From NCBI GenBank assembly GCA_027488815.1, contig JAIYAX010000007.1, positions 1-64,000 on the forward strand: 64,000 nucleotides of DNA. Reading direction: 5' to 3'. The first letter of the stretch is position 1; each line of letters begins with the position of its first letter. This document shows, in pieces, positions 52,465 through 64,000 of this stretch. Source of the stretch: Cytophagaceae bacterium (GTDB lineage Bacteria; Bacteroidota; Bacteroidia; Cytophagales; JAIYAX01). A model generated the notes under the pieces. It saw only the letters and a list, made by a program, of their open reading frames with translations, was not told the DNA's origin and did no database searches. Both the position numbers and the translations under genes were made by a program.

Positions 52465-52941
52465 ATGCCATTTCTCTACGACAAAGAAGATTCCATAGGC
52501 TTTTTGCTTCATCGCACTTCCAGAAGCCTGGTGCAGCTCTTCAATGAGCGTTTTGCAGCGCATGGCATCGACTTGCGCACAGAGCACTGGGCCGTCCTTT
52601 ACCATGTTTTTGAAAAGGGCGATGTGCAGCAGCAGGAGCTGATGTCGCTCACCTGCACCGACAAAACTGCCCTCACCCGTGCCATCGATCACCTTGTGGA
52701 GCAGGGCCTCGTGCAGCGCAGAGAAATGGAGAGCGACCGCAGAAAACAAATGATCTCCATCAGCCCCCTTGCACTACAGCATAAAGACCATTTCACAGGC
52801 ATCGTGATGAACGAGATCAGAACAGAGGCCTGCCGGGCACTCAGTCAGGAGGAGCAAATGCAGCTCAAACAACTGCTCAACAAGATTTACTTCAGCATAC
52901 AGTCAGCTCAGGCACAAAAAACGACCCCATCAAATCCATGA
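52465..52941 (+). CDS. MarR-family transcriptional regulator
   Basis: A 158-aa winged-helix regulator. FLLHRTSRSLVQLFNERFAAHGI is the dimer helix, VQQQELMSLTCTDKTALTRAIDHLVEQGLVQRREMESDRRKQMISI is the wHTH with the typical DxRxK wing (SDRRKQ). It heads an efflux operon, with a 9-bp-arm palindrome over its own promoter, so it should act as an autorepressor released by a small ligand. The stop overlaps the next ATG (ATGA). Confidence 0.93.
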   Translation: MPFLYDKEDSIGFLLHRTSRSLVQLFNERFAAHGIDLRTEHWAVLYHVFEKGDVQQQELMSLTCTDKTALTRAIDHLVEQGLVQRREMESDRRKQMISISPLALQHKDHFTGIVMNEIRTEACRALSQEEQMQLKQLLNKIYFSIQSAQAQKTTPSNP

Positions 52942-54065
52942 CACGCAGGCAATTGATCCTATTGGCAGTACCTCTTACCTTACTGGTGGGAGGTTATGGC
53001 CTGAAGACTTTTCTGGCATCGAAGCGTAAAGACCCCGATAAAAAACCAATGGTGAATGCGGTTCGCTACGTACCGGTGAAGCCTATCCGCTACACCAGCA
53101 CCCGTATCACCCTTAAAGGCTACGGTCGCCTACAGTCAGAGCAGGCGATTACCCTATTGGCAGAAGTGAGTGGCAAGCTCATGGCAGGCCAAGTACCCAT
53201 GCGTCGCTCGGTGAGTTTTAGCAAAGGGCAACTCCTGTACCAGATTGATGACCGGGAAGCAAGGTTGGCATTGCAAGCTCAGCGGGCCGATTACATGACG
53301 TTGGTGGCCAATGTGCTTCCTGACCTTAAGCTTGATTTTCCGACAGATGCAGCTCCCTGGGAAGTCTTCCTGAGCCGCATTTCACCTACAAAAAACCTCC
53401 CGGAATTACCCGAACTGAATTCCAAGCCCTCTACCGGTTTGCTCACTGCACGCAGGGTAATTGCTCAGTATTACCAAATCCGTAGTGCGGAAGAGCGTCT
53501 GGCAAAATACCAGTTCTATGCTCCCTTTTCAGGCACGTTCACGCTGGTGAACCAGGAGAGCGGCAGCATTGTCAATGCCAATACCAATCTGGGGCGCATC
53601 ATCAAGACCGAAGCTTACGAGCTCTCCATGCCCATGCCAAGGTCTGAAGCGGCCTTGCTGAAATCGGGTATGACCGTTCAGTTGAGGAGCTCTGATGGAA
53701 GTGTACAGGTGAGCGGTCGGTTGAATCGTATTTCTTCCTTTCTGGATGCCGCCACGCAGTCGCTTACGGTCTTTATCACTGTAAGCCGGTCTGACTCCAA
53801 AGTATATGACGGCATGTACCTTGAAGGCACCATCGACACCGGCAAATCAGCCCCCCTCATGGCTTTGCCAAGAAAAGCAATGCTTCAGGATCAGAACGTC
53901 TACATCGTGAAAGACAGCCTGCTGACCATGAGCCCGGTAAATGTGCTCAAGAGCGACGAAGCCTTTGTTTATTTCAACGGACCTGAAGAAGGCGCTCTGC
54001 TGGTAACTGAAAACCTTGTGGGTGCGATGCCCAACATGAAAGTCAACCCCGCCATTGCCAAATGA
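52938..54065 (+). CDS. RND efflux periplasmic adaptor (membrane fusion protein)
   Basis: A 375-aa adaptor. One N-terminal helix anchors it (about residues 6-23). ITLLAEVSGKLMAGQVPMRRSVSFSKGQLLYQID is the first half of the lipoyl domain, and KYQFYAPFSGTFTLVNQESGSIVNANTNLGRI the second half with the barrel-sandwich. The helical hairpin between them is short. A beta-barrel and membrane-proximal domain follow. It overlaps the RND gene by 4 bp. Confidence 0.92.
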   Translation: MTRRQLILLAVPLTLLVGGYGLKTFLASKRKDPDKKPMVNAVRYVPVKPIRYTSTRITLKGYGRLQSEQAITLLAEVSGKLMAGQVPMRRSVSFSKGQLLYQIDDREARLALQAQRADYMTLVANVLPDLKLDFPTDAAPWEVFLSRISPTKNLPELPELNSKPSTGLLTARRVIAQYYQIRSAEERLAKYQFYAPFSGTFTLVNQESGSIVNANTNLGRIIKTEAYELSMPMPRSEAALLKSGMTVQLRSSDGSVQVSGRLNRISSFLDAATQSLTVFITVSRSDSKVYDGMYLEGTIDTGKSAPLMALPRKAMLQDQNVYIVKDSLLTMSPVNVLKSDEAFVYFNGPEEGALLVTENLVGAMPNMKVNPAIAK

Positions 54066-57000
54066 GACAAGGGGTATCCTTTTTCGTTCGCTACCCAATT
54101 TGGGGTGATGTATTACTGCTCTTGCTTTGCGGCATTGGGTTGCTTGCATTTTTACAACTCAAGGCCAATTTTTTCCCTGAGATAGAGCAAAGAAACGTTC
54201 AGGTTCAGGTCATCTACCCGGGCGCATCTCCCGAAGAGATGGAAAACGGGGTAGTTAACAAAGTGGAAGATGCACTGAAAGGAATCGAGGGCATCGAGCA
54301 GGTGTTTTCAGTATCTTCAGAAAACAGTGCCATCATCACCATAGAGGGCCGCAAGGGCTACGACCCAGAGCTACTCCTTAGCGATGTAAAAAATACGGTA
54401 GATCGCATCAATTCTTTTCCGGCTGATGCCGAAAAGCCCATTGTTTTCAAAGTGAAGCAGATCGAAAGGGTGGTCTCCATGCTGCTCCAAGGTGAGGTTG
54501 ATTTGCTCACCCTAAAGAAAAGGGCCGAACAGATTGAAGATGAGCTCCTTTCCTCCGGCAAAGTAAGTCAGGTGGTTTTGTCCGGCTTTCCAGAGTTGGA
54601 GTTTTCGGTGGAAATCGCTGAAGATAACCTCCGTCGTTATGGACTACGCTTTGATGAGGTAGCTGCAGCTATCCGGGCCAATAATTTTGATCTATCCGGA
54701 GGAGCGTTAAAATCATCAGAAGAAGAGGTGTTGCTGAGGTTCAGAAACAAGAAATACACAGGCTATGAAGTTGGAGCAATCATTCTACGTACCAATTCTG
54801 ATGGTTCTGTTCTGAGAATAGTAGATGTAGCCGAGGTCAAAGAGCAATTTGCCGAAACACCCAACAAAACCACCTTCAACGGATCAAGGGCAGTCACCAT
54901 CACGGTCAACAAAACCATTGACGAAGACATCATAGAGATTTCTGATTATGCCAAGGATTATGTTAAAACCTTCAATGAGCAAAACAATATACTTAAACTC
55001 TCCATTGGCGCCGACCAAAGCAAAATCATCCGCCAAAGAATTGAGCTATTGCTTAAAAATGGAATATCAGGATCTATTCTGGTGCTGATCACTTTGGGGA
55101 TTTTCATGAATTTCAGACTTGCCTTCTGGGTGGCCTCTGCCATTCCGGTTTCCTTTCTGGGCATGTTCATCCTGGCCTATTACACCGGTATCACCATCAA
55201 CGTGGTTTCCTTGTTCGGAATGATTCTGGTGGTGGGTATTCTGGTAGACGATGGGATTGTGGTTGGCGAAAATATCTATGCTCATTTTGAACGGGGCAAA
55301 CCCGCTTTTCAGGCTGCGGTTGATGGTACCAGTGAAGTGATCACCTCCGTATTTGCGTCAGTTTCGACCACCATAGTCATGTTCATACCCTTTTTCTTCC
55401 TGGAGAGTAGAATAGGAGAGGCTTTTTCCAACATGGCCATCGTGGTGATTGGCTGTCTTTCTGTTTCCTTACTTGAAGCAGCATTCATTTTACCAAGCCA
55501 CCTGGCACATTCGAAGGCCTTGAGTCGAAAAGAGAAAAAAGGTTTTCATAAGAATGTAGATAAAGGGTTGGACTGGGTAAGATTTAGAGCTTATGAAGGA
55601 TTCCTAAGGAGGACCCTGTCGCATCGCTACACAATCCTTGCTGCAGGTGTATTTTTTATCATGTTGACCATTGGGCTGATGCAGGGGACCATGATCAAAA
55701 CCACCTTTTTCCCCTTTGTCGATGGAGATAACATCAACATTGACTTAACCATGCCACCGGGCACCCGTGAGTCGCAAACAGAAGCAATCTTAAAGCGCAT
55801 TGAAGAAAATGTATGGAAGGCCAACGAGCAGTTATCTAAAGGACGGACGGATGGATTGAAGGTTGTTCAGAATGTGCGGTTAGAAGTAGGAACCGGAGGT
55901 GCAGAAAAAGGCCTTCTGGATGTAGAACTGCTTGATGGTGAAACCAGAAACCTGGAAAGTTTTAAAATCACCAATGCCGTCCGTGAACTTACCGGACCAG
56001 TGACGGAGGCGGATAAATTGACCTTTGGTTCCAGGCAGATTTTTGGGAAACCTGTGGTAATGAGCCTTGTTTCAAAAGATCTGAACATTCTTGAGCAAGC
56101 CAGAAGGCAGTCCATTGCAGAACTTTCTTCCTTTCCAACCTTACGAGACGTGACGGACAACAACCTGGCTGGTAAAAGAGAAGTAGAGTTTGAATTGAAA
56201 CCATTGGCGTATTTTTTGGGCCTCACGACCAACGACATCGCCCGCCAAATCAGGCAGGGATTTTTCGGAGAAGAGGTACAGCGACTACAAATAGGCAATG
56301 ATGAGGTAAAAGTTTGGGTCAGATACCCGGATTTTGGCCGCAGAACCTTGGGCCAGTTGGAGCAGCTACGAATCAAGACCGCTGACGGAAGAGAGTTCCC
56401 TCTGCCGGAGTTGGCTAATTTCAGTATCGAAAGAGGGATTGTAGCCATCAACCACGTGGATGGTGCCCGTGAAGTCCGTATAGAGGCCGATTTGGCAAAT
56501 CCCAATGAACCCGTACCGCCCTTGATTGAACGTATCAAAAATGAAGTTGTGCCTCGTCTGATGGCTGATTATCCCGGATTGAAGGTTCGGTTTGAGGGGC
56601 AAGACAGGGAAAACCAGAAGTTTCAGCGTTCGGCATTAAGGGCCTTTCCACTTGCACTTGGCATTTTGATTTTGATCATCGTGCTTACCTTCCGCTCCTG
56701 GAGCCAGATGTTTTTGATCGTTTTAATGATCCCCTTGGGCATATTCGGAGCATTGATGGGCCATTGGATTGAAGGTAAACCTGTCTCAATCTTTTCGTAT
56801 TTCGGGATGATCGCACTTGCAGGCATTGTGGTGAACGACTCAGTGGTGTTTCTAGACAAATTCAACGCCTTGCTGAAAGAGGGTTTACCCTTCCCCGAGG
56901 CAGTAATCAAAGCAGGGACTTCGAGATTTAGGGCCATCATGCTGACCTCATTGACTACCGTAGCAGGCTTGTACCCACTTATCCTTGAGAAAAGTCGTCA

Positions 57001-57214
57001 GGCGCAATTCCTGATCCCAATGGCCATTTCAGTGGCCTGGGGTTTAATATTCACGACCATCTTCACCTTGATTATGCTCCCAAGTATGATCTATGTGATG
57101 AATGACCTAAGGGTATGGTGGAACGGAAAAAACAAAGGTGGCGATTGGCCGGACCGCAGGGAAGTGGAACCGGCAGTAGCAGAGCAAAAAGCGATCATAC
57201 ATGAGAATGAATAA
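54062..57214 (+). CDS. RND efflux pump permease
   Basis: A 1050-aa inner-membrane transporter. NFFPEIEQRNVQVQVIYPGASPEEMENGVVNKVEDAL is the conserved first porter-domain segment. Twelve helices are arranged as 1+5, porter loop, 1+5; VVSLFGMILVVGILVDDGIVVGENIYAHFERG is helix 4, the proton-relay helix with an Asp pair. The repeat half has SIFSYFGMIALAGIVVNDSVVFLDKFN. It is closer to the MdtB/AcrB-like HAE group than to metal (HME) pumps. Confidence 0.94.
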   Translation: MRQGVSFFVRYPIWGDVLLLLLCGIGLLAFLQLKANFFPEIEQRNVQVQVIYPGASPEEMENGVVNKVEDALKGIEGIEQVFSVSSENSAIITIEGRKGYDPELLLSDVKNTVDRINSFPADAEKPIVFKVKQIERVVSMLLQGEVDLLTLKKRAEQIEDELLSSGKVSQVVLSGFPELEFSVEIAEDNLRRYGLRFDEVAAAIRANNFDLSGGALKSSEEEVLLRFRNKKYTGYEVGAIILRTNSDGSVLRIVDVAEVKEQFAETPNKTTFNGSRAVTITVNKTIDEDIIEISDYAKDYVKTFNEQNNILKLSIGADQSKIIRQRIELLLKNGISGSILVLITLGIFMNFRLAFWVASAIPVSFLGMFILAYYTGITINVVSLFGMILVVGILVDDGIVVGENIYAHFERGKPAFQAAVDGTSEVITSVFASVSTTIVMFIPFFFLESRIGEAFSNMAIVVIGCLSVSLLEAAFILPSHLAHSKALSRKEKKGFHKNVDKGLDWVRFRAYEGFLRRTLSHRYTILAAGVFFIMLTIGLMQGTMIKTTFFPFVDGDNINIDLTMPPGTRESQTEAILKRIEENVWKANEQLSKGRTDGLKVVQNVRLEVGTGGAEKGLLDVELLDGETRNLESFKITNAVRELTGPVTEADKLTFGSRQIFGKPVVMSLVSKDLNILEQARRQSIAELSSFPTLRDVTDNNLAGKREVEFELKPLAYFLGLTTNDIARQIRQGFFGEEVQRLQIGNDEVKVWVRYPDFGRRTLGQLEQLRIKTADGREFPLPELANFSIERGIVAINHVDGAREVRIEADLANPNEPVPPLIERIKNEVVPRLMADYPGLKVRFEGQDRENQKFQRSALRAFPLALGILILIIVLTFRSWSQMFLIVLMIPLGIFGALMGHWIEGKPVSIFSYFGMIALAGIVVNDSVVFLDKFNALLKEGLPFPEAVIKAGTSRFRAIMLTSLTTVAGLYPLILEKSRQAQFLIPMAISVAWGLIFTTIFTLIMLPSMIYVMNDLRVWWNGKNKGGDWPDRREVEPAVAEQKAIIHENE

Positions 57215-58511
57215 ACTTCTTTGTTTCATTCTTGCCGGGCTTCAGGGCGTTGCCTTAGCACAACCCTCTATGAGTCTTGAAGAGGCCTGGAAAAGGGCGT
57301 TGGAGCAAAATCATACCATTCGCATCAGCAAGATCACTACCGAAATTGCTGCCAACACTGTAACCAAAGGCAATGCCGGCATGCTCCCGACCTTTAACCT
57401 ACAAGGAGGGGCTAGTTTTCAACGCAATAACACCGATCTGGATTTTGCCGGTAGCCTTCCAGATGTATCAAGAAGGGGAGTGCAGAATTATTCCTACAAC
57501 GGATCAGTAGTGGCAAACTACAGGATTTATGGGGGAGGAAATGCCTGGTATAATCTTATGCAACTTGATAACCGATACCAGACTGCGGTCAACCTTGAGG
57601 CTATTGCAATCGAAGGTACCCTGCTTCAGGTAGCCAATGCCTATTTCAATTTGCTCCTGCAGCAGGAAAATGTCCGTATCCTAACGCAAAGTCTGGCCAC
57701 CGGAAGGGACCGAATTACTTTGGCACAAGAAAGACAAAGGCTAGGCACCGGAACACAACTGGAAAAGTTGAATGCTCAGGTCAATCAGGTGACAGATAGC
57801 ATAAGCCTTTTGAATGCAAACCTTGCTTTATCGGCTGCTTCCCGTCAGTTAGCCTTTTTGTTGAAGATGCCGATGGAGAGCCTGCTCGTTGCCGATACCA
57901 GTCTGGAATCCGAGTCGCAAATCAATGAATGGTTGAGCATCAATCCTGAAGGTCAGGCAACAGCGGTGGTTGCCACACTTTTAGCTATGGAGAGTGCGAA
58001 ACTGGTGGAGTCACAGAACAGGGCCATCAGACTTCCAAGCCTTGATGCCACGGCCAGCTATGGTTACAATAAGCAGATCAATGAAGTAGGAGTGGTCTTG
58101 TCCAGTCAGAATTTGGGATTGAATGCCGGCCTCACGCTAAGTTGGAACTTATTTGATGGTGGCAGAAGACGCATCTTGCTCCAAAACTCCATGAAGCAGG
58201 TTGAAGCCAATGCACAATTGATAGATCAGGCAAGAACTCAAGTGAGACGTGAGTGGCTTGATGCTGTTGACAGGCTTAAAACCCAACAATCTGCTCGCAA
58301 CTTGCTTAAAACCCAAATTGCAGCCGTTCAAATGAATTACCAGCGAACGGCTGAGCTTTACAGGCTTGGTCAGGTCGGCTCAACCGTATTTCGTGAGGCA
58401 CAACTTAATCTGATGCAGGTGTTGCAATTGCAAAGGCAGGCACAAGTAGGAGAGAAGCTGGCAGAGATTGAAATCAAGAGGCTGGCAGGCAGACTTCTTC
58501 AAAACGAGTAA
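57201..58511 (+). CDS. TolC-family outer membrane channel
   Basis: A 436-aa outer-membrane efflux protein. The signal peptide ends near residue 21 (GVALAQ). Two OEP repeats are visible (SLEEAWKRALEQNHTIRISKI; YRIYGGGNAWYNL, and the second half with LSWNLFDGGRRRILLQNS). It overlaps the RND gene by 14 bp. An ATG at 57207 is an alternative start. Confidence 0.93.
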   Translation: MRMNKLLCFILAGLQGVALAQPSMSLEEAWKRALEQNHTIRISKITTEIAANTVTKGNAGMLPTFNLQGGASFQRNNTDLDFAGSLPDVSRRGVQNYSYNGSVVANYRIYGGGNAWYNLMQLDNRYQTAVNLEAIAIEGTLLQVANAYFNLLLQQENVRILTQSLATGRDRITLAQERQRLGTGTQLEKLNAQVNQVTDSISLLNANLALSAASRQLAFLLKMPMESLLVADTSLESESQINEWLSINPEGQATAVVATLLAMESAKLVESQNRAIRLPSLDATASYGYNKQINEVGVVLSSQNLGLNAGLTLSWNLFDGGRRRILLQNSMKQVEANAQLIDQARTQVRREWLDAVDRLKTQQSARNLLKTQIAAVQMNYQRTAELYRLGQVGSTVFREAQLNLMQVLQLQRQAQVGEKLAEIEIKRLAGRLLQNE

Positions 58512-58520
58512 TCAGGTACC

Positions 58521-59714
58521 ATGAATCAAGAAAATCGGCTGCTGCTTGTGCTGGCGGCCATACAGTTTACCCATATCATGGACTTTATGATCATGATGCC
58601 TTTGGGTCCACAACTCATGCGGATGTTTGATATCAGCCCACAGGAATTCTCATTTCTGGTCAGTTCCTACACGTTTACGGCAGGAGCAGTGAGCATTTTG
58701 GCTGCATTGGTGATGGACAAATTCGATCGAAGATCTTTGCTGAGCATCGCTTACATCGGTTTCACTGTTGGCACGATCGCATGCGCTTTTGCCGAAAGTT
58801 ATTGGGTTCTCTTATTGACCAGGTCTTTGACGGGAGCATTCGGAGGTATTCTGGGAGCTTTGGTGTTTGCCATTATCGGTGATGCCATTCCTCTTGAGCG
58901 TAGAGCCACAGCGATGGGCAAGCTTATGGCTTCTTTTTCGTTGGCTTCAGTGATTGGTGTGCCTTCGGGCTTGTTCATCGCAACTAAGTTTTCCTGGCAT
59001 GCGCCATTTCTGGCACTTGGGGCAATGGGCGTGATCATCACCGTTTTTATTTTCCTTTGGGTACCGAGAATGCGTTCACATTTAAGTACAGGAATGGGAA
59101 CTGGTAAACAGGTTTTTCAGGTTTTTATCGATATTTCCAAAAACCCCAATCAGCTTTTGGCCTTGTTGCTGATGATTTGCCTGATGCTGGGCCAGTTTAC
59201 CATCATCCCGTTCATCAGTCCCTATATGGTTTCCAATGTTGGGTTTACGGAGGCGCAGCTTACCTATATCTACCTGGTAGGTGGAGCATTGACCATTTTT
59301 ACGTCCCCTTTGGTGGGTAAATTGGCTGACCGCTTCGGAAGGCTCAAGGTGTTTTCAGTTTCTGTCATCCTTTCGCTTATTCCGCTGCTGCTGATTACCC
59401 ATATGCCACCTACTCCCATTTATTTAGTGCTTATGGTCTCAGCTATATTTTTTGTACTCATAGGAGGGCGCATGATCCCGGCCATGACGATGATTACCGC
59501 TGCGGTGCAAAGCAGGCAAAGAGGGGGTTTTATGTCTGTTAACTCAGCCGTGCAGCAAATCGCTTCAGGCTTTGCCTCCTTTCTGGCAGGCCTGATTGTG
59601 ATTAAAACAGCAGACGGACAATTGGCCAACTATCATTATGTGGGGTATATCGCTGTTTTTTTTAGTTTGATTACCCTGTTCATTGCCAGAAAGATTAAGC
59701 CGGCAGAGGATTAA
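58521..59714 (+). CDS. Major facilitator superfamily transporter (DHA1 type)
   Basis: A 397-aa 12-helix transporter. MDKFDRRSLL, between helices 2 and 3, is the MFS motif A equivalent, LTRSLTGAFGGILGALV is in helix 4, and GKLADRFGRLKV is the second motif A. It resembles drug exporters. It lies 9 bp after the TolC gene in the MarR operon, an additional single-component pump. Confidence 0.92.
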   Translation: MNQENRLLLVLAAIQFTHIMDFMIMMPLGPQLMRMFDISPQEFSFLVSSYTFTAGAVSILAALVMDKFDRRSLLSIAYIGFTVGTIACAFAESYWVLLLTRSLTGAFGGILGALVFAIIGDAIPLERRATAMGKLMASFSLASVIGVPSGLFIATKFSWHAPFLALGAMGVIITVFIFLWVPRMRSHLSTGMGTGKQVFQVFIDISKNPNQLLALLLMICLMLGQFTIIPFISPYMVSNVGFTEAQLTYIYLVGGALTIFTSPLVGKLADRFGRLKVFSVSVILSLIPLLLITHMPPTPIYLVLMVSAIFFVLIGGRMIPAMTMITAAVQSRQRGGFMSVNSAVQQIASGFASFLAGLIVIKTADGQLANYHYVGYIAVFFSLITLFIARKIKPAED

Positions 59715-59777: not shown

Positions 59778-60314
59778 ATGAAGAATTCCATTTTGTATTT
59801 TGTTTTTGCCCTTATGGTTTTTGCAACTGCCTGCAGTTCAGAAAAAAAATCCCACGAGGCACACGACGGCCATCAAGCTGCTGCTGATCATCAGAACAAA
59901 GGATTCGATGATGTCCCCCAACTAGCGGCTTCTGTGATTCAAAGCATCGCCAACTACGACTACAATGAGTACTATAGTCATGTGATCACCAAAAGCCAGG
60001 AAAAGGCGGCTGCAGCCACCATTCAAGACAATGCCAACCGCAAGGCTTTCATGAAAGAGTTTGAATTCAGCATCAAAGAAGAGAAAGTCTACTTTGACAA
60101 CATTGAGAAACTCATCAAAGAAGAAAAACTGGACATGGCCAATGCCCGTGTGAACGAAATGGAGATACTTGATTACAAAGCGACAGAATACGCTCCCCAA
60201 GTGTTAAAGCAAGTGATCATACCGGTAATGAAAGGCGAAATGGAAATTGATATTGTTTTTGTGGCCATTCAGTTGGATGGAAAATGGTATCTCACGGCTG
60301 AGTTAGGCGTTTAA
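59778..60314 (+). CDS. Hypothetical His-rich lipoprotein
   Basis: A 178-aa lipoprotein; signal MKNSILYFVFALMVFATACS with lipobox ATAC at about residue 19. A short histidine-rich segment (HEAHDGHQAAADHQ) follows the Cys, then a helical region. The C-terminus (IDIVFVAIQLDGKWYLTAEL) is beta-strand-like, similar to NTF2-like lumazine folds, which is a guess. It starts the run that includes the metalloproteases (4-bp gap to the next gene). Confidence 0.68.
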   Translation: MKNSILYFVFALMVFATACSSEKKSHEAHDGHQAAADHQNKGFDDVPQLAASVIQSIANYDYNEYYSHVITKSQEKAAAATIQDNANRKAFMKEFEFSIKEEKVYFDNIEKLIKEEKLDMANARVNEMEILDYKATEYAPQVLKQVIIPVMKGEMEIDIVFVAIQLDGKWYLTAELGV

Positions 60315-60318
60315 TGCC

Positions 60319-60936
60319 TTGATTTACAGATTATCCATACTTCTTTTCTTTGGGCTTTCGACTTTGGCTTATGTATCTTGTAAGCCGGTAAAAAAGGCAA
60401 CAGAGCTAAAGCCCGAAACTATTGGCACTGCCAATGGGAATCAAGGTAGGGCTTTGCAGGAACCTCAATGGGAAAAGGCACACCCTGATGTTGAGCTTAA
60501 GTTCAGAAAAGGGGCAGCACTTCCCTTGTCTTATACGATTTATCGGATAGATACTCAGGTGCTTGGAGATTGGTTGAGACGAATCCCCAAAATGAAGGAA
60601 CCCCAAAACTGGGAAGAAGCCGGTAAATTGAGTTTGCCCAATCCTGAAGGAGAATTGCTAGGTTTTGATTTGTTGAACAGCCCGGTCATGGCTCCTGAAC
60701 TGGCAGCAAAGTTCCCGGAGATCATGACTTTCAGTGGCAAAGCAAGGAATCAGGCGGTAACCACTTTGCAATGCGAGTTTACCCCACGTGGGTTCACTGC
60801 TCAAATACTCTCAACCAAGGAAACTTACCTGATCGAACCATTAGAGAATCAAGGAATGAACTTGTATATTGTTTTTCGAAAAACAGATCTGGTTCCGGTA
60901 AAAAACAAACAATTCCCAGAAGGAAATTCAAGATAA
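60319..60936 (+). CDS. Lipoprotein version of the metalloprotease propeptide
   Basis: A 205-aa lipoprotein from a TTG start; lipobox LAYVSC (Cys21). Residues about 60-190 align with the propeptide of the next gene: LSLPNPEGELLGFDLLNSPV and FPEIMTFSGKA then FTPRGFTAQILSTKETYLIEP, against LPDPSGHFQQFRLVESPV, YPEIRTYLGQG, ITPHGFHAMVISARESYFIDP. It has no catalytic domain. It may hold or inhibit the secreted proteases, or be the remnant of a third copy; the intact lipobox favours a function. No name was recognised. Confidence 0.75.
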   Translation: MIYRLSILLFFGLSTLAYVSCKPVKKATELKPETIGTANGNQGRALQEPQWEKAHPDVELKFRKGAALPLSYTIYRIDTQVLGDWLRRIPKMKEPQNWEEAGKLSLPNPEGELLGFDLLNSPVMAPELAAKFPEIMTFSGKARNQAVTTLQCEFTPRGFTAQILSTKETYLIEPLENQGMNLYIVFRKTDLVPVKNKQFPEGNSR

Positions 60937-60946
60937 TTTTAAACAC

Positions 60947-63214
60947 ATGAAAAGAAGTTTACTCATCCTCGCCTTCCTATGTATGATCAGCGGGGCAAAA
61001 GCGCAGCAAGGAGCCAACCTTTGGATGTTTTTACCTGAAACCCCTGACGGTCAGGGAGAGCCAAGAATACAGGCTGTTGACAAAAGGCTGTACCAACTCG
61101 GGCTTACAGCTTTGAAACAAACCCTTCTTTCTGTGCCGAATGAAAGCTCAACAGAAGCATTTTCTTCGACATTTATCATCAGTCTGCCGGACCCTTCAGG
61201 GCATTTTCAGCAGTTTAGGTTGGTTGAAAGTCCTGTTATGCAGGAAGGTTTGCAAGCCCGTTATCCTGAGATCAGAACATATCTAGGGCAAGGAGTTACC
61301 GATGGCACCGCCAACCTGAGGATGGACATTACCCCACACGGCTTTCATGCAATGGTGATTTCTGCAAGAGAGAGTTATTTTATTGATCCCTACTACAATG
61401 GTACTACCGGAATTTACATCGTTTATTATCGAAAGGATTTCCGAAGACCGGTTTCAAAAGTGATGACCGAAGGTCGGCCTGAGCCCTCAGCCATCAATCT
61501 CGATAGCCTGGTACAGAGCATGAAAAGCAGTGGAATATTAACGCCTAACGGTGGCACCCGTCGGACCTTCAGACTTGCAGTAGCCACTTCAAAGGAGTAT
61601 ACCAATTTTCATGGAGGAACTGTTCCGTTGGGTTTATCTGCAGTGGTTACGAGTGTGAACAGGGTTGTGGGAGTTTATGAGCGAGAGTTTGCGGTAAGGC
61701 TTACACTGATCGCCAATAATGATCTGGTGATTTATACGGATATTAATCCTGGACCCTGGACCAACCAGAGCAGTGCTCCAACGACCATAACCCAAAACCA
61801 AACCAATATGGATGCGGTTATCGGCTCGGCAAACTACGACATTGGACACGTTTTTACGACCGGAGCAGGTGGTCTAGCATCACTTGGTTCCGTTTGCTCT
61901 GGTTTTGCAAAAGCCAGAGGGGTTACGGGCATTTCTGCTCCAGTAGGGGATCCATTCGATATTGATTATGTAGCACATGAAATTGGGCACCAGTTTGGCG
62001 GCTCCCATACGTTTAATGGTTCAACAGGCAACTGCCTTACTGAAATAAGTACCGCCCATGCCTGGGAGCCCGGTAGCGGAAGCACGATCATGGCTTATGC
62101 CGATTTATGCCCGGGACAAAATATTCAATCGAACTCTGATGATTATTTTCATACCGGCAGTTATGAGCAAATGCTGGCTTTTATTCAGTCCATCAATTTC
62201 TGTGCTGTGCAAACAACCACAGGGAACAACCCTCCCAATGCCTCAGTTCCATTTATCACCTACACTATTCCAAGAGGAACACCGTTTAGTCTGACAGGCA
62301 CAGGGAGTGACCCTAATCCGGATACACTTACCTTCAATTGGGAGCAAATAGATCTTGGGCCACAAGGAGTACCCAATTCTCCAAGCGGACAAGCACCTGT
62401 TTTCCGAAGTGTTAAGCCCGATACCAGCCGTACCCGGTTTTTCCCATCGCTGAGTTTTCTCAGGTCTAATGCAAGTACTGCTGTTCCTTTAGGCGAAGCA
62501 CTTGCGAATTATGGCAGGACTTTAGGATTTCGATTTACGGTGCGTGACAACAGAGCCGGCTCCGGAGGGGTAAATAACTCAAGCACCTATACAGTCACTG
62601 TTGCTTCAGAAGGTCCTGTAAATGTTACTTCACCTTCATCAAGTCTAAATCAGGTTTTTTGGACACCAGCCCAGTCAAGAACAGTATCCTGGACAGTAAA
62701 CAATACCAATCTAGCCCCTGTGGCCGCTACCGATGTGAACATAGAATTTTCTTTGGATGATGGCGTTACCTGGCCCATTACCTTAGTGAGCAATACCCCT
62801 AACGACGGAACTGAAAACGTCATTGTCCCCAATATTACCACCAATAATGGACGTGTTCGGGTTGTTTCGGTACTGCCCAATATTTGGTTTGCATGGGCAA
62901 GAACAAGGGTAAGAATTACCGCTGTAGCTGGTGTCAATGAACAGGTTGACCTGAATAAAATCTTGGAAGTATTCCCCAACCCGGCAAAGGATATCCTGTA
63001 TCTGGTTTTTGACCATGAGTTGATCCAGCCGAATCGGATTGAGCTTTTTGACCTGTTGGGAAAGCAGGTTAAGTTATGGAATAAAATGCCTGATCATGAT
63101 CATGCCGGAGAACTTCGATTGCCTTTGGATGAACTGAACACCGGGCTTTACATGCTCAGTCTTCACACCTCCGATGGGAAGCATGTTTCGAAAAAAATCT
63201 ATATTCAACCCTGA
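60947..63214 (+). CDS. Secreted reprolysin-like zinc metalloprotease with T9SS sorting domain
   Basis: A 755-aa exported protease. Signal peptide to about residue 20; propeptide about 45-165; catalytic domain from about residue 206 with VAHEIGHQFGGSH (H344, E345, H348, H354) and the Met-turn IMAYADLC near residue 388. Ig-like beta modules follow (about 425-660), and the C-terminus (VFPNPAKDILYLVF to GLYMLSLHTSDGKHVSKKIYI) is a type A T9SS domain. It is likely a surface or secreted protease kept latent by the propeptide. Confidence 0.9.
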   Translation: MKRSLLILAFLCMISGAKAQQGANLWMFLPETPDGQGEPRIQAVDKRLYQLGLTALKQTLLSVPNESSTEAFSSTFIISLPDPSGHFQQFRLVESPVMQEGLQARYPEIRTYLGQGVTDGTANLRMDITPHGFHAMVISARESYFIDPYYNGTTGIYIVYYRKDFRRPVSKVMTEGRPEPSAINLDSLVQSMKSSGILTPNGGTRRTFRLAVATSKEYTNFHGGTVPLGLSAVVTSVNRVVGVYEREFAVRLTLIANNDLVIYTDINPGPWTNQSSAPTTITQNQTNMDAVIGSANYDIGHVFTTGAGGLASLGSVCSGFAKARGVTGISAPVGDPFDIDYVAHEIGHQFGGSHTFNGSTGNCLTEISTAHAWEPGSGSTIMAYADLCPGQNIQSNSDDYFHTGSYEQMLAFIQSINFCAVQTTTGNNPPNASVPFITYTIPRGTPFSLTGTGSDPNPDTLTFNWEQIDLGPQGVPNSPSGQAPVFRSVKPDTSRTRFFPSLSFLRSNASTAVPLGEALANYGRTLGFRFTVRDNRAGSGGVNNSSTYTVTVASEGPVNVTSPSSSLNQVFWTPAQSRTVSWTVNNTNLAPVAATDVNIEFSLDDGVTWPITLVSNTPNDGTENVIVPNITTNNGRVRVVSVLPNIWFAWARTRVRITAVAGVNEQVDLNKILEVFPNPAKDILYLVFDHELIQPNRIELFDLLGKQVKLWNKMPDHDHAGELRLPLDELNTGLYMLSLHTSDGKHVSKKIYIQP

Positions 63215-63225
63215 AACCAACACGT

Positions 63226-64000
63226 ATGAGCAATAAGCTATACCAATTCCTGTTTGTTTGCTGCTTTTTGGGGCAAATCCAACTGCTTCAGGCACAAACA
63301 GAAAAACGCCTTTGGAGCTTTCAGAATGAAGGCCCAGCCATCAAGCTTCAAGATGTTTTGATCAAGGCTTCAGAGAAAAAACTCTTTACCCTTGACATTC
63401 AGCAAGCAGAGTTCAAACTAAAGCAAGCCCCAATATGGCGTGAGGCTGACTTGCGTTCATACGGCATGGCTTTTCAGCTACCGGACCCTCAAGGGAATAT
63501 CCGCACCTACCATTTGGCAAACCTTTCCAACTTTGAAGCTCCCCTGGCAGCAAAGTATCCTGAGATCCAAAGCTTCACCGGTATAGGGCCAGATGGCAGT
63601 GTGCTCAAGCTGGATATCAGCCCAAAAGGATTGAGGGCAATGGTATTAGGTCATGAGTATACCTATTTCATTGATCCTTACCTCAAAAGCGGTGTTTTAT
63701 GGTACATGGTCTATGACAAAAAACACTACATAAAGGGTGAAGGAAAACCCGATGGTGAAGAGGCTCCTATTGGAGATGTTTCCGAAGTAGAGGCACTGGT
63801 AAAAAAATACAGAGAAAATCAAGGGGGTAAAATTTTCACTCCCAATGGAGCGACCAAGAGAACCTACAGAATTGCGATTGCTGCTTCAAAGGAATATACC
63901 AATTTCCATGGAGGAACGGTTCCTCTCGCATTAGCGGCTCAGAACACTACTATGAACAGGGTCAATGGCGTTTATGAGCGGGATTTTGCGGTAAGGATGA
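63226..64000 (+). CDS. Second tandem metalloprotease, cut by the window end
   Basis: From ATG 63226 the frame stays open to the end of the window (258 codons seen). The signal peptide ends LLQAQ, the propeptide shows LPDPQGNIRTYHLANLSNF, YPEIQSFTGIGPDGS and ISPKGLRAMVLGHEYTYFIDP, and the catalytic start reads RTYRIAIAASKEYTNFHGGTVPL, matching the preceding protease (RTFRLAVATSKEYTNFHGGTVPL). The zinc site would lie beyond the window. Clearly a tandem duplicate. Confidence 0.88.
   Translation, partial: MSNKLYQFLFVCCFLGQIQLLQAQTEKRLWSFQNEGPAIKLQDVLIKASEKKLFTLDIQQAEFKLKQAPIWREADLRSYGMAFQLPDPQGNIRTYHLANLSNFEAPLAAKYPEIQSFTGIGPDGSVLKLDISPKGLRAMVLGHEYTYFIDPYLKSGVLWYMVYDKKHYIKGEGKPDGEEAPIGDVSEVEALVKKYRENQGGKIFTPNGATKRTYRIAIAASKEYTNFHGGTVPLALAAQNTTMNRVNGVYERDFAVRM

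Follow-up and report, generated by a model that had tools for sequence, protein, structure and literature searches.

Little is understood about how T9SS cargo proteases remain folded and inactive while in the periplasm. Spi, the SpeB inhibitor, is a stand-alone propeptide-like inhibitor. CpaB is membrane-anchored and encoded beside the secreted metzincin CpaA; CpaA depends on it for secretion and has its catalytic site blocked by the C-terminal tail of CpaB (PMC7542363, PMC4713064). As a separate protein, the ADAM17 prodomain binds mature ADAM17 in trans and inhibits it, with the C-terminal loop of the prodomain occupying the substrate groove (PMC11248996). The potempins of Tannerella forsythia are encoded by lipoprotein genes located directly before T9SS KLIKK protease genes and are reported inhibitors of these proteases (PMC7296668), and SUB1-ProM is a stand-alone propeptide inhibitor encoded beside its protease genes (PMC6993865). 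A literature search, with most subscription journals outside its reach, found no description of the stand-alone propeptide/protease gene pair reported here.

The window, i.e. the whole 64,000-nt stretch that was analysed, covers positions 1-64000 of contig C29 of a 3.37-Mb genome (C29 and window coordinates are the same). This genome is rich in T9SS tails, with 101 matches genome-wide. The stand-alone propeptide gene (60319-60936, + strand) encodes a 205-aa protein with a signal peptide, a putative lipidated Cys21, a propeptide-fold domain at approximately residues 73-187 and an acidic tail, without a catalytic domain or a T9SS tail. Its signal peptide and lipobox (MIYRLSILLFFGLSTLAYVS^C; 60319-60381, + strand) were assigned by reading the sequence, and relatives have canonical lipoboxes in the same place. 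The tail comprises F-P-E-G (residues 199-202; 60913-60924, + strand), an aromatic-acidic stretch at the site of F-x-C in most partner proteases. The ORF begins with TTG, 4 nt past the stop of the upstream gene, and no in-frame ATG precedes the signal peptide.

Two T9SS reprolysin-like proteases are encoded directly downstream. Protease 1 (60947-63214, + strand, 755 aa) has its own propeptide at approximately residues 20-200, the zinc site HEIGHQFGGSH (61976-62008, + strand), an IMAY motif and a Por_Secre_tail (62969-63205, + strand). Protease 2 (63226-64000, + strand, 1262 aa), also with its own propeptide, runs on past the window to C29:67014, with a Por_Secre_tail at C29:66775-66993. Its zinc motif is HEIGHQFDCTH, with Asp for the usual Gly of HExxHxxGxxH (locus L009:5227-9015, corresponding to C29:63226-67014). 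Upstream of the stand-alone gene, a small lipoprotein gene (59778-60314, + strand, 178 aa) with a His-rich start and no family match is possibly a member of the same operon. By-eye reading of the translations at 52465-59714 gave an ordinary MarR regulator, membrane-fusion protein, RND pump, TolC-like protein and MFS transporter. Elsewhere in the same genome (C15:66-74 kb), two more tandem reprolysins carry divergent forms of the same propeptide; no stand-alone copy was detected beside them, and a search of the genome with the stand-alone protein returned no second short copy.

The preliminary description of this locus had proposed that the 60319 product shares the propeptide of both downstream proteases and lacks a catalytic domain, and both points hold: gap-free alignments connect the product with the propeptides of protease 1 (41/129 identical residues, 32%, E-value 3e-22) and protease 2 (31% identity, E-value 2e-16), and neither HExxH nor HExxHxxGxxH is present in it. 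Failure to align to the propeptide profile had been set beforehand as one of three refuting outcomes; the stand-alone does align. The motif pattern was said to be complete in all three proteins, which is true of the homology and not of the pattern taken literally, as protease 2 reads SPKGL...YTYFIDP. The lipid anchor is probable in the 60319 product, where the lipobox reads AYVSC, with a Tyr at -3 that is looser than the textbook form, but it is not universal in the family (28/40). Sequence searches of Pfam, NCBIfam and the PDB with the 60319 product gave no meaningful match, and an initial scan of genome contigs with this protein as single query found no relative.

We compared predicted structures with solved ones. 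For the stand-alone, an AlphaFold2 model (mean pLDDT 85.7) had as its top solved-structure match chain G of 6O38 (6o38_G; Z 10.2, 3.0 Å, 119 residues), which from its size we infer to be CpaB, followed by the ADAM17 prodomain (Z 9.7-10.0) and, more weakly, the profragilysin propeptide (Z of about 6.5), with unrelated folds at Z 5.0 and below. Foldseek alone was weak for this model (best E-value 0.009). Homology and a predicted ADAM-prodomain-like fold place the 60319 product in the propeptide domain family of T9SS reprolysins. When aligned with 8snm_A, the ADAM17 prodomain in isolation, it matches up to model residue 205 and chain residue 189, i.e. past Cys184, so that, by alignment ranges and not by coordinates, the tail motif lies close to the zinc-binding cysteine. 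In a model of protease 1 (residues 1-428, window positions 60947-62230, pLDDT 82.7), propeptide and catalytic domain both align to the ADAM17 zymogen (Z 24.5, 3.6 Å over 301 residues), which predicts that the cis propeptide packs against its enzyme in the manner of ADAM17. The linker at the tail-equivalent place of this model has low confidence (pLDDT of about 40), and a zinc-contact role of the tail is suggested by its position and composition. The same two-domain unit, with its ADAM17-zymogen match, has relatives in many bacterial phyla, which bears on the idea that fragilysin derives from an animal ADAM.

To survey stand-alone genes, we performed whole-genome searches covering the order, the class, a neighbouring family, a Hymenobacter-like genus, the phylum and three further families. 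The intact set comprised 30 stand-alones once frameshifted or contig-end proteases had been removed, and 10 more were examined later. Among the rejected candidates, L049 (G320) and L070 (G411) were frameshifted proteases, and L101, G604:C59, the second frame of L190 and L191 were contig-end pieces of proteases; L135, from a cyanobacterial MAG, was excluded since its frame of 301 aa extends past the propeptide. L100 (G862 C1:2270500-2278500), from the Hymenobacter-like genus, was rejected as an intact stand-alone: both it and its partner protease are broken by frame changes, and the pair seems to decay together.

All 30 stand-alones of the first set lie directly upstream of a protease gene and are co-directional with it, with gaps mostly below 130 nt and some overlaps. 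One of the later ten (L182) was examined just before, and nine after, three predictions had been fixed; adjacency to a protease, the tail motif and a lipobox were each found in 10/10, a set that is not independent because eight come from one genus. Over the whole survey, 40/40 intact stand-alones, all from Bacteroidota genomes, are located directly upstream of, and share their strand with, a long reprolysin that has retained a propeptide itself. The preliminary description had named homologues without a linked protease as a refuting outcome, and none was found among these 40. Stand-alones were present in 12/107 protease-family-bearing genomes of the Hymenobacter-like genus, 7/15 of family f19, 13/14 of family f26 and 10/110 of the class sample, and most relatives of the protease have no stand-alone partner. 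In the set of named genomes, stand-alones occur only in Bacteroidota, and the propeptide-bearing protease family in many phyla.

All stand-alones end shortly past the propeptide domain. We found the tail motif [FYW].?[DE] in 25/30 of them, against a mean of 7.8 and a maximum of 16 in 2000 shuffles, and in 15/16 of a thinned set, against 5.4 expected. None of the 30 tails contains a Cys, and an aromatic-acidic, Cys-free tail is present in 35 of the 40 stand-alones overall. At this position most partner proteases have F-x-C, a cysteine-switch-like site, and proteases without that Cys are mostly acidic there, including both window proteases (MTEG and PDGEE).

We hold with moderate confidence that the stand-alone is a propeptide-derived, envelope-held inhibitor/chaperone that acts on the protease in trans, ahead of its export by the T9SS. 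The basis of this explanation is homology, gene pairing, constraint, predicted fold and conserved tail, and the role in trans would fit both the fold (ADAM17 prodomain, CpaB) and the tail; in the simplest reading, the family would unite what the ADAM17 prodomain in trans, CpaB and the potempins each show in part. The 60319 product would be a dedicated partner of the T9SS reprolysin or reprolysins encoded just downstream. After export by Sec and putative lipid anchoring, it would probably face the periplasm and could dock on the catalytic domain in trans, as the enzyme's own prodomain does, with its C-terminal carboxylate tail placed at the zinc site or in the substrate groove. Such docking may keep the enzyme folded and silent within the envelope, and at T9SS export the protease would leave and the anchored partner remain. 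More generally, Bacteroidota stand-alones probably keep the protease folded and silent until it exits the cell. Against this account, the need for a second copy is not obvious when the proteases already have a cis propeptide; most protease relatives are partnerless; 12/40 stand-alones have no lipobox; and the linker at the place where the tail would meet the zinc is modelled at low confidence.

The stand-alone could instead be a pure inhibitor or immunity protein that shields the cell's own envelope from surface-active or returning mature protease and gives no help in folding or export. A Cys-free tail with a conserved acidic residue fits a stable plug, the potempins share this gene layout and act as inhibitors (PMC7296668), and so does SUB1-ProM act, a stand-alone propeptide near its protease genes (PMC6993865). 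We nevertheless regard inhibition alone as unlikely. The closest fold among solved structures is that of CpaB, which secretion requires and which does not act by inhibition only. Acidic residues right after the lipobox Cys, which form the Bacteroidota surface-lipoprotein export signal, are found in few stand-alones, and the family would therefore lie mostly on the periplasmic side; as no surface-export signal is evident in most copies, contact with a mature surface enzyme is uncertain.

A lipobox Cys follows a hydrophobic leader in 28/40 stand-alones, and most relatives of the 60319 product have the textbook form. This would agree with a docking or retention factor, in which the anchored propeptide keeps the protease membrane-bound or passes it to the T9SS without inhibiting it. 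In the other 12 copies, found mainly in one Hymenobacter group, the signal peptide is of the ordinary kind and lacks a lipobox, so that anchoring is not constant, and the conserved tail points to the active site and not to tethering; we therefore consider docking without inhibition quite improbable.

Stand-alones are under protein constraint. Between the closest Hymenobacter stand-alones (56-72% identity), dN was 0.19-0.38 against a dS of 0.7-2.4, and for one other pair 0.08 against 0.87. When 87 propeptide domains were placed in a maximum-likelihood tree, the stand-alone label changed 4 times, against a shuffled mean of 25, and most stand-alones are closer to one another than to the propeptide of the adjacent protease. 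A test of stand-alone monophyly gave an AU p of 0.18 (0.37 without L073), so that a single ancient origin is neither established nor rejected. On this tree the window copy sits on a long branch and its placement is unsure. L073 (G786), whose gene position is the same and whose tail (PFEQQ) is similar, groups as sister of the propeptide of the protease next to it with support 99/85, and the same layout therefore arose a second time there. Distances between stand-alones and between partner propeptides co-vary (r 0.92), which we do not take as evidence of binding because shared species history yields the same. That the stand-alone is a relic, i.e. a decayed protease duplicate retaining just signal and propeptide, is very hard to credit: the recent re-creation in L073 and the broken pair in L100 speak for it, but 40 intact copies under purifying selection already contradict it, as do the deep clustering of stand-alones apart from their neighbours and a conserved C-terminal end that differs from the protease linker. 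Instead of the decayed copy that had been named as a refuting outcome, we thus find a constrained and old gene family.

The envelope-held inhibitor/chaperone reading can be extended. The cysteine switch is redox-sensitive, and stand-alones are possibly, although we say so tentatively, widespread substrate-dedicated T9SS export chaperone-inhibitors, built from a freed, lipid-anchored propeptide in which the cysteine switch became a carboxylate switch, and formed at least two times independently. As a recurrent two-gene unit, the pair offers a direct test bed for the mechanism that holds T9SS cargo proteases folded and inactive, and one fold joins bacterial secretion chaperones (CpaB) with ADAM-type prodomains. 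If the tail is a carboxylate switch, it would provide a natural selective inhibitor scaffold for ADAM-like enzymes.

Among known systems, the profragilysin propeptide is of the same fold class and belongs to a Bacteroidota metzincin, but it acts as a cis propeptide only, and we know of no stand-alone copy of it. The ADAM17 prodomain resembles the stand-alones in fold and, through the related cis propeptide, in docking geometry; unlike them, it is normally part of the protease and relies on Cys184 as its cysteine switch, in contrast to the acidic, Cys-free tail of stand-alones. SUB1-ProM, MEROPS I9 proteins such as Pleurotus peptidase A inhibitor 1, and Spi are likewise encoded as separate propeptide-like trans inhibitors, but for serine or cysteine protease families, with other folds and no lipid anchor. 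CpaB (Acinetobacter, type II secretion) shares the predicted fold and a gene beside that of a secreted metzincin (40/40 here), at approximately 11% identity, so that the likeness is one of fold and not of established common descent. It is encoded downstream of its protease, whereas stand-alones are upstream, and it has a transmembrane helix and a type II route, whereas stand-alones have a lipobox or ordinary signal peptide and a T9SS-tailed partner; because of this difference in anchor and route we do not file them under the CpaB family. With potempins, the window and most relatives share a lipoprotein gene directly ahead of a T9SS protease gene. That likeness is one of gene layout; potempins are not described as propeptide relatives in PMC7296668. 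The PDB gave no sequence relative of the 60319 product, and no potempin was among the fold matches listed, which does not exclude one; we do not file the stand-alones under potempins. The earlier statement that no named system has this layout was too strong, because potempins and CpaB work from the same layout (PMC7296668, PMC4713064). The working principle is thus already known from separate examples, and what is new is that T9SS systems use a propeptide of the enzyme family itself, encoded by a gene of its own and usually lipid-anchored, together with the breadth of stand-alone propeptides and the Cys-to-acid change in their tail.
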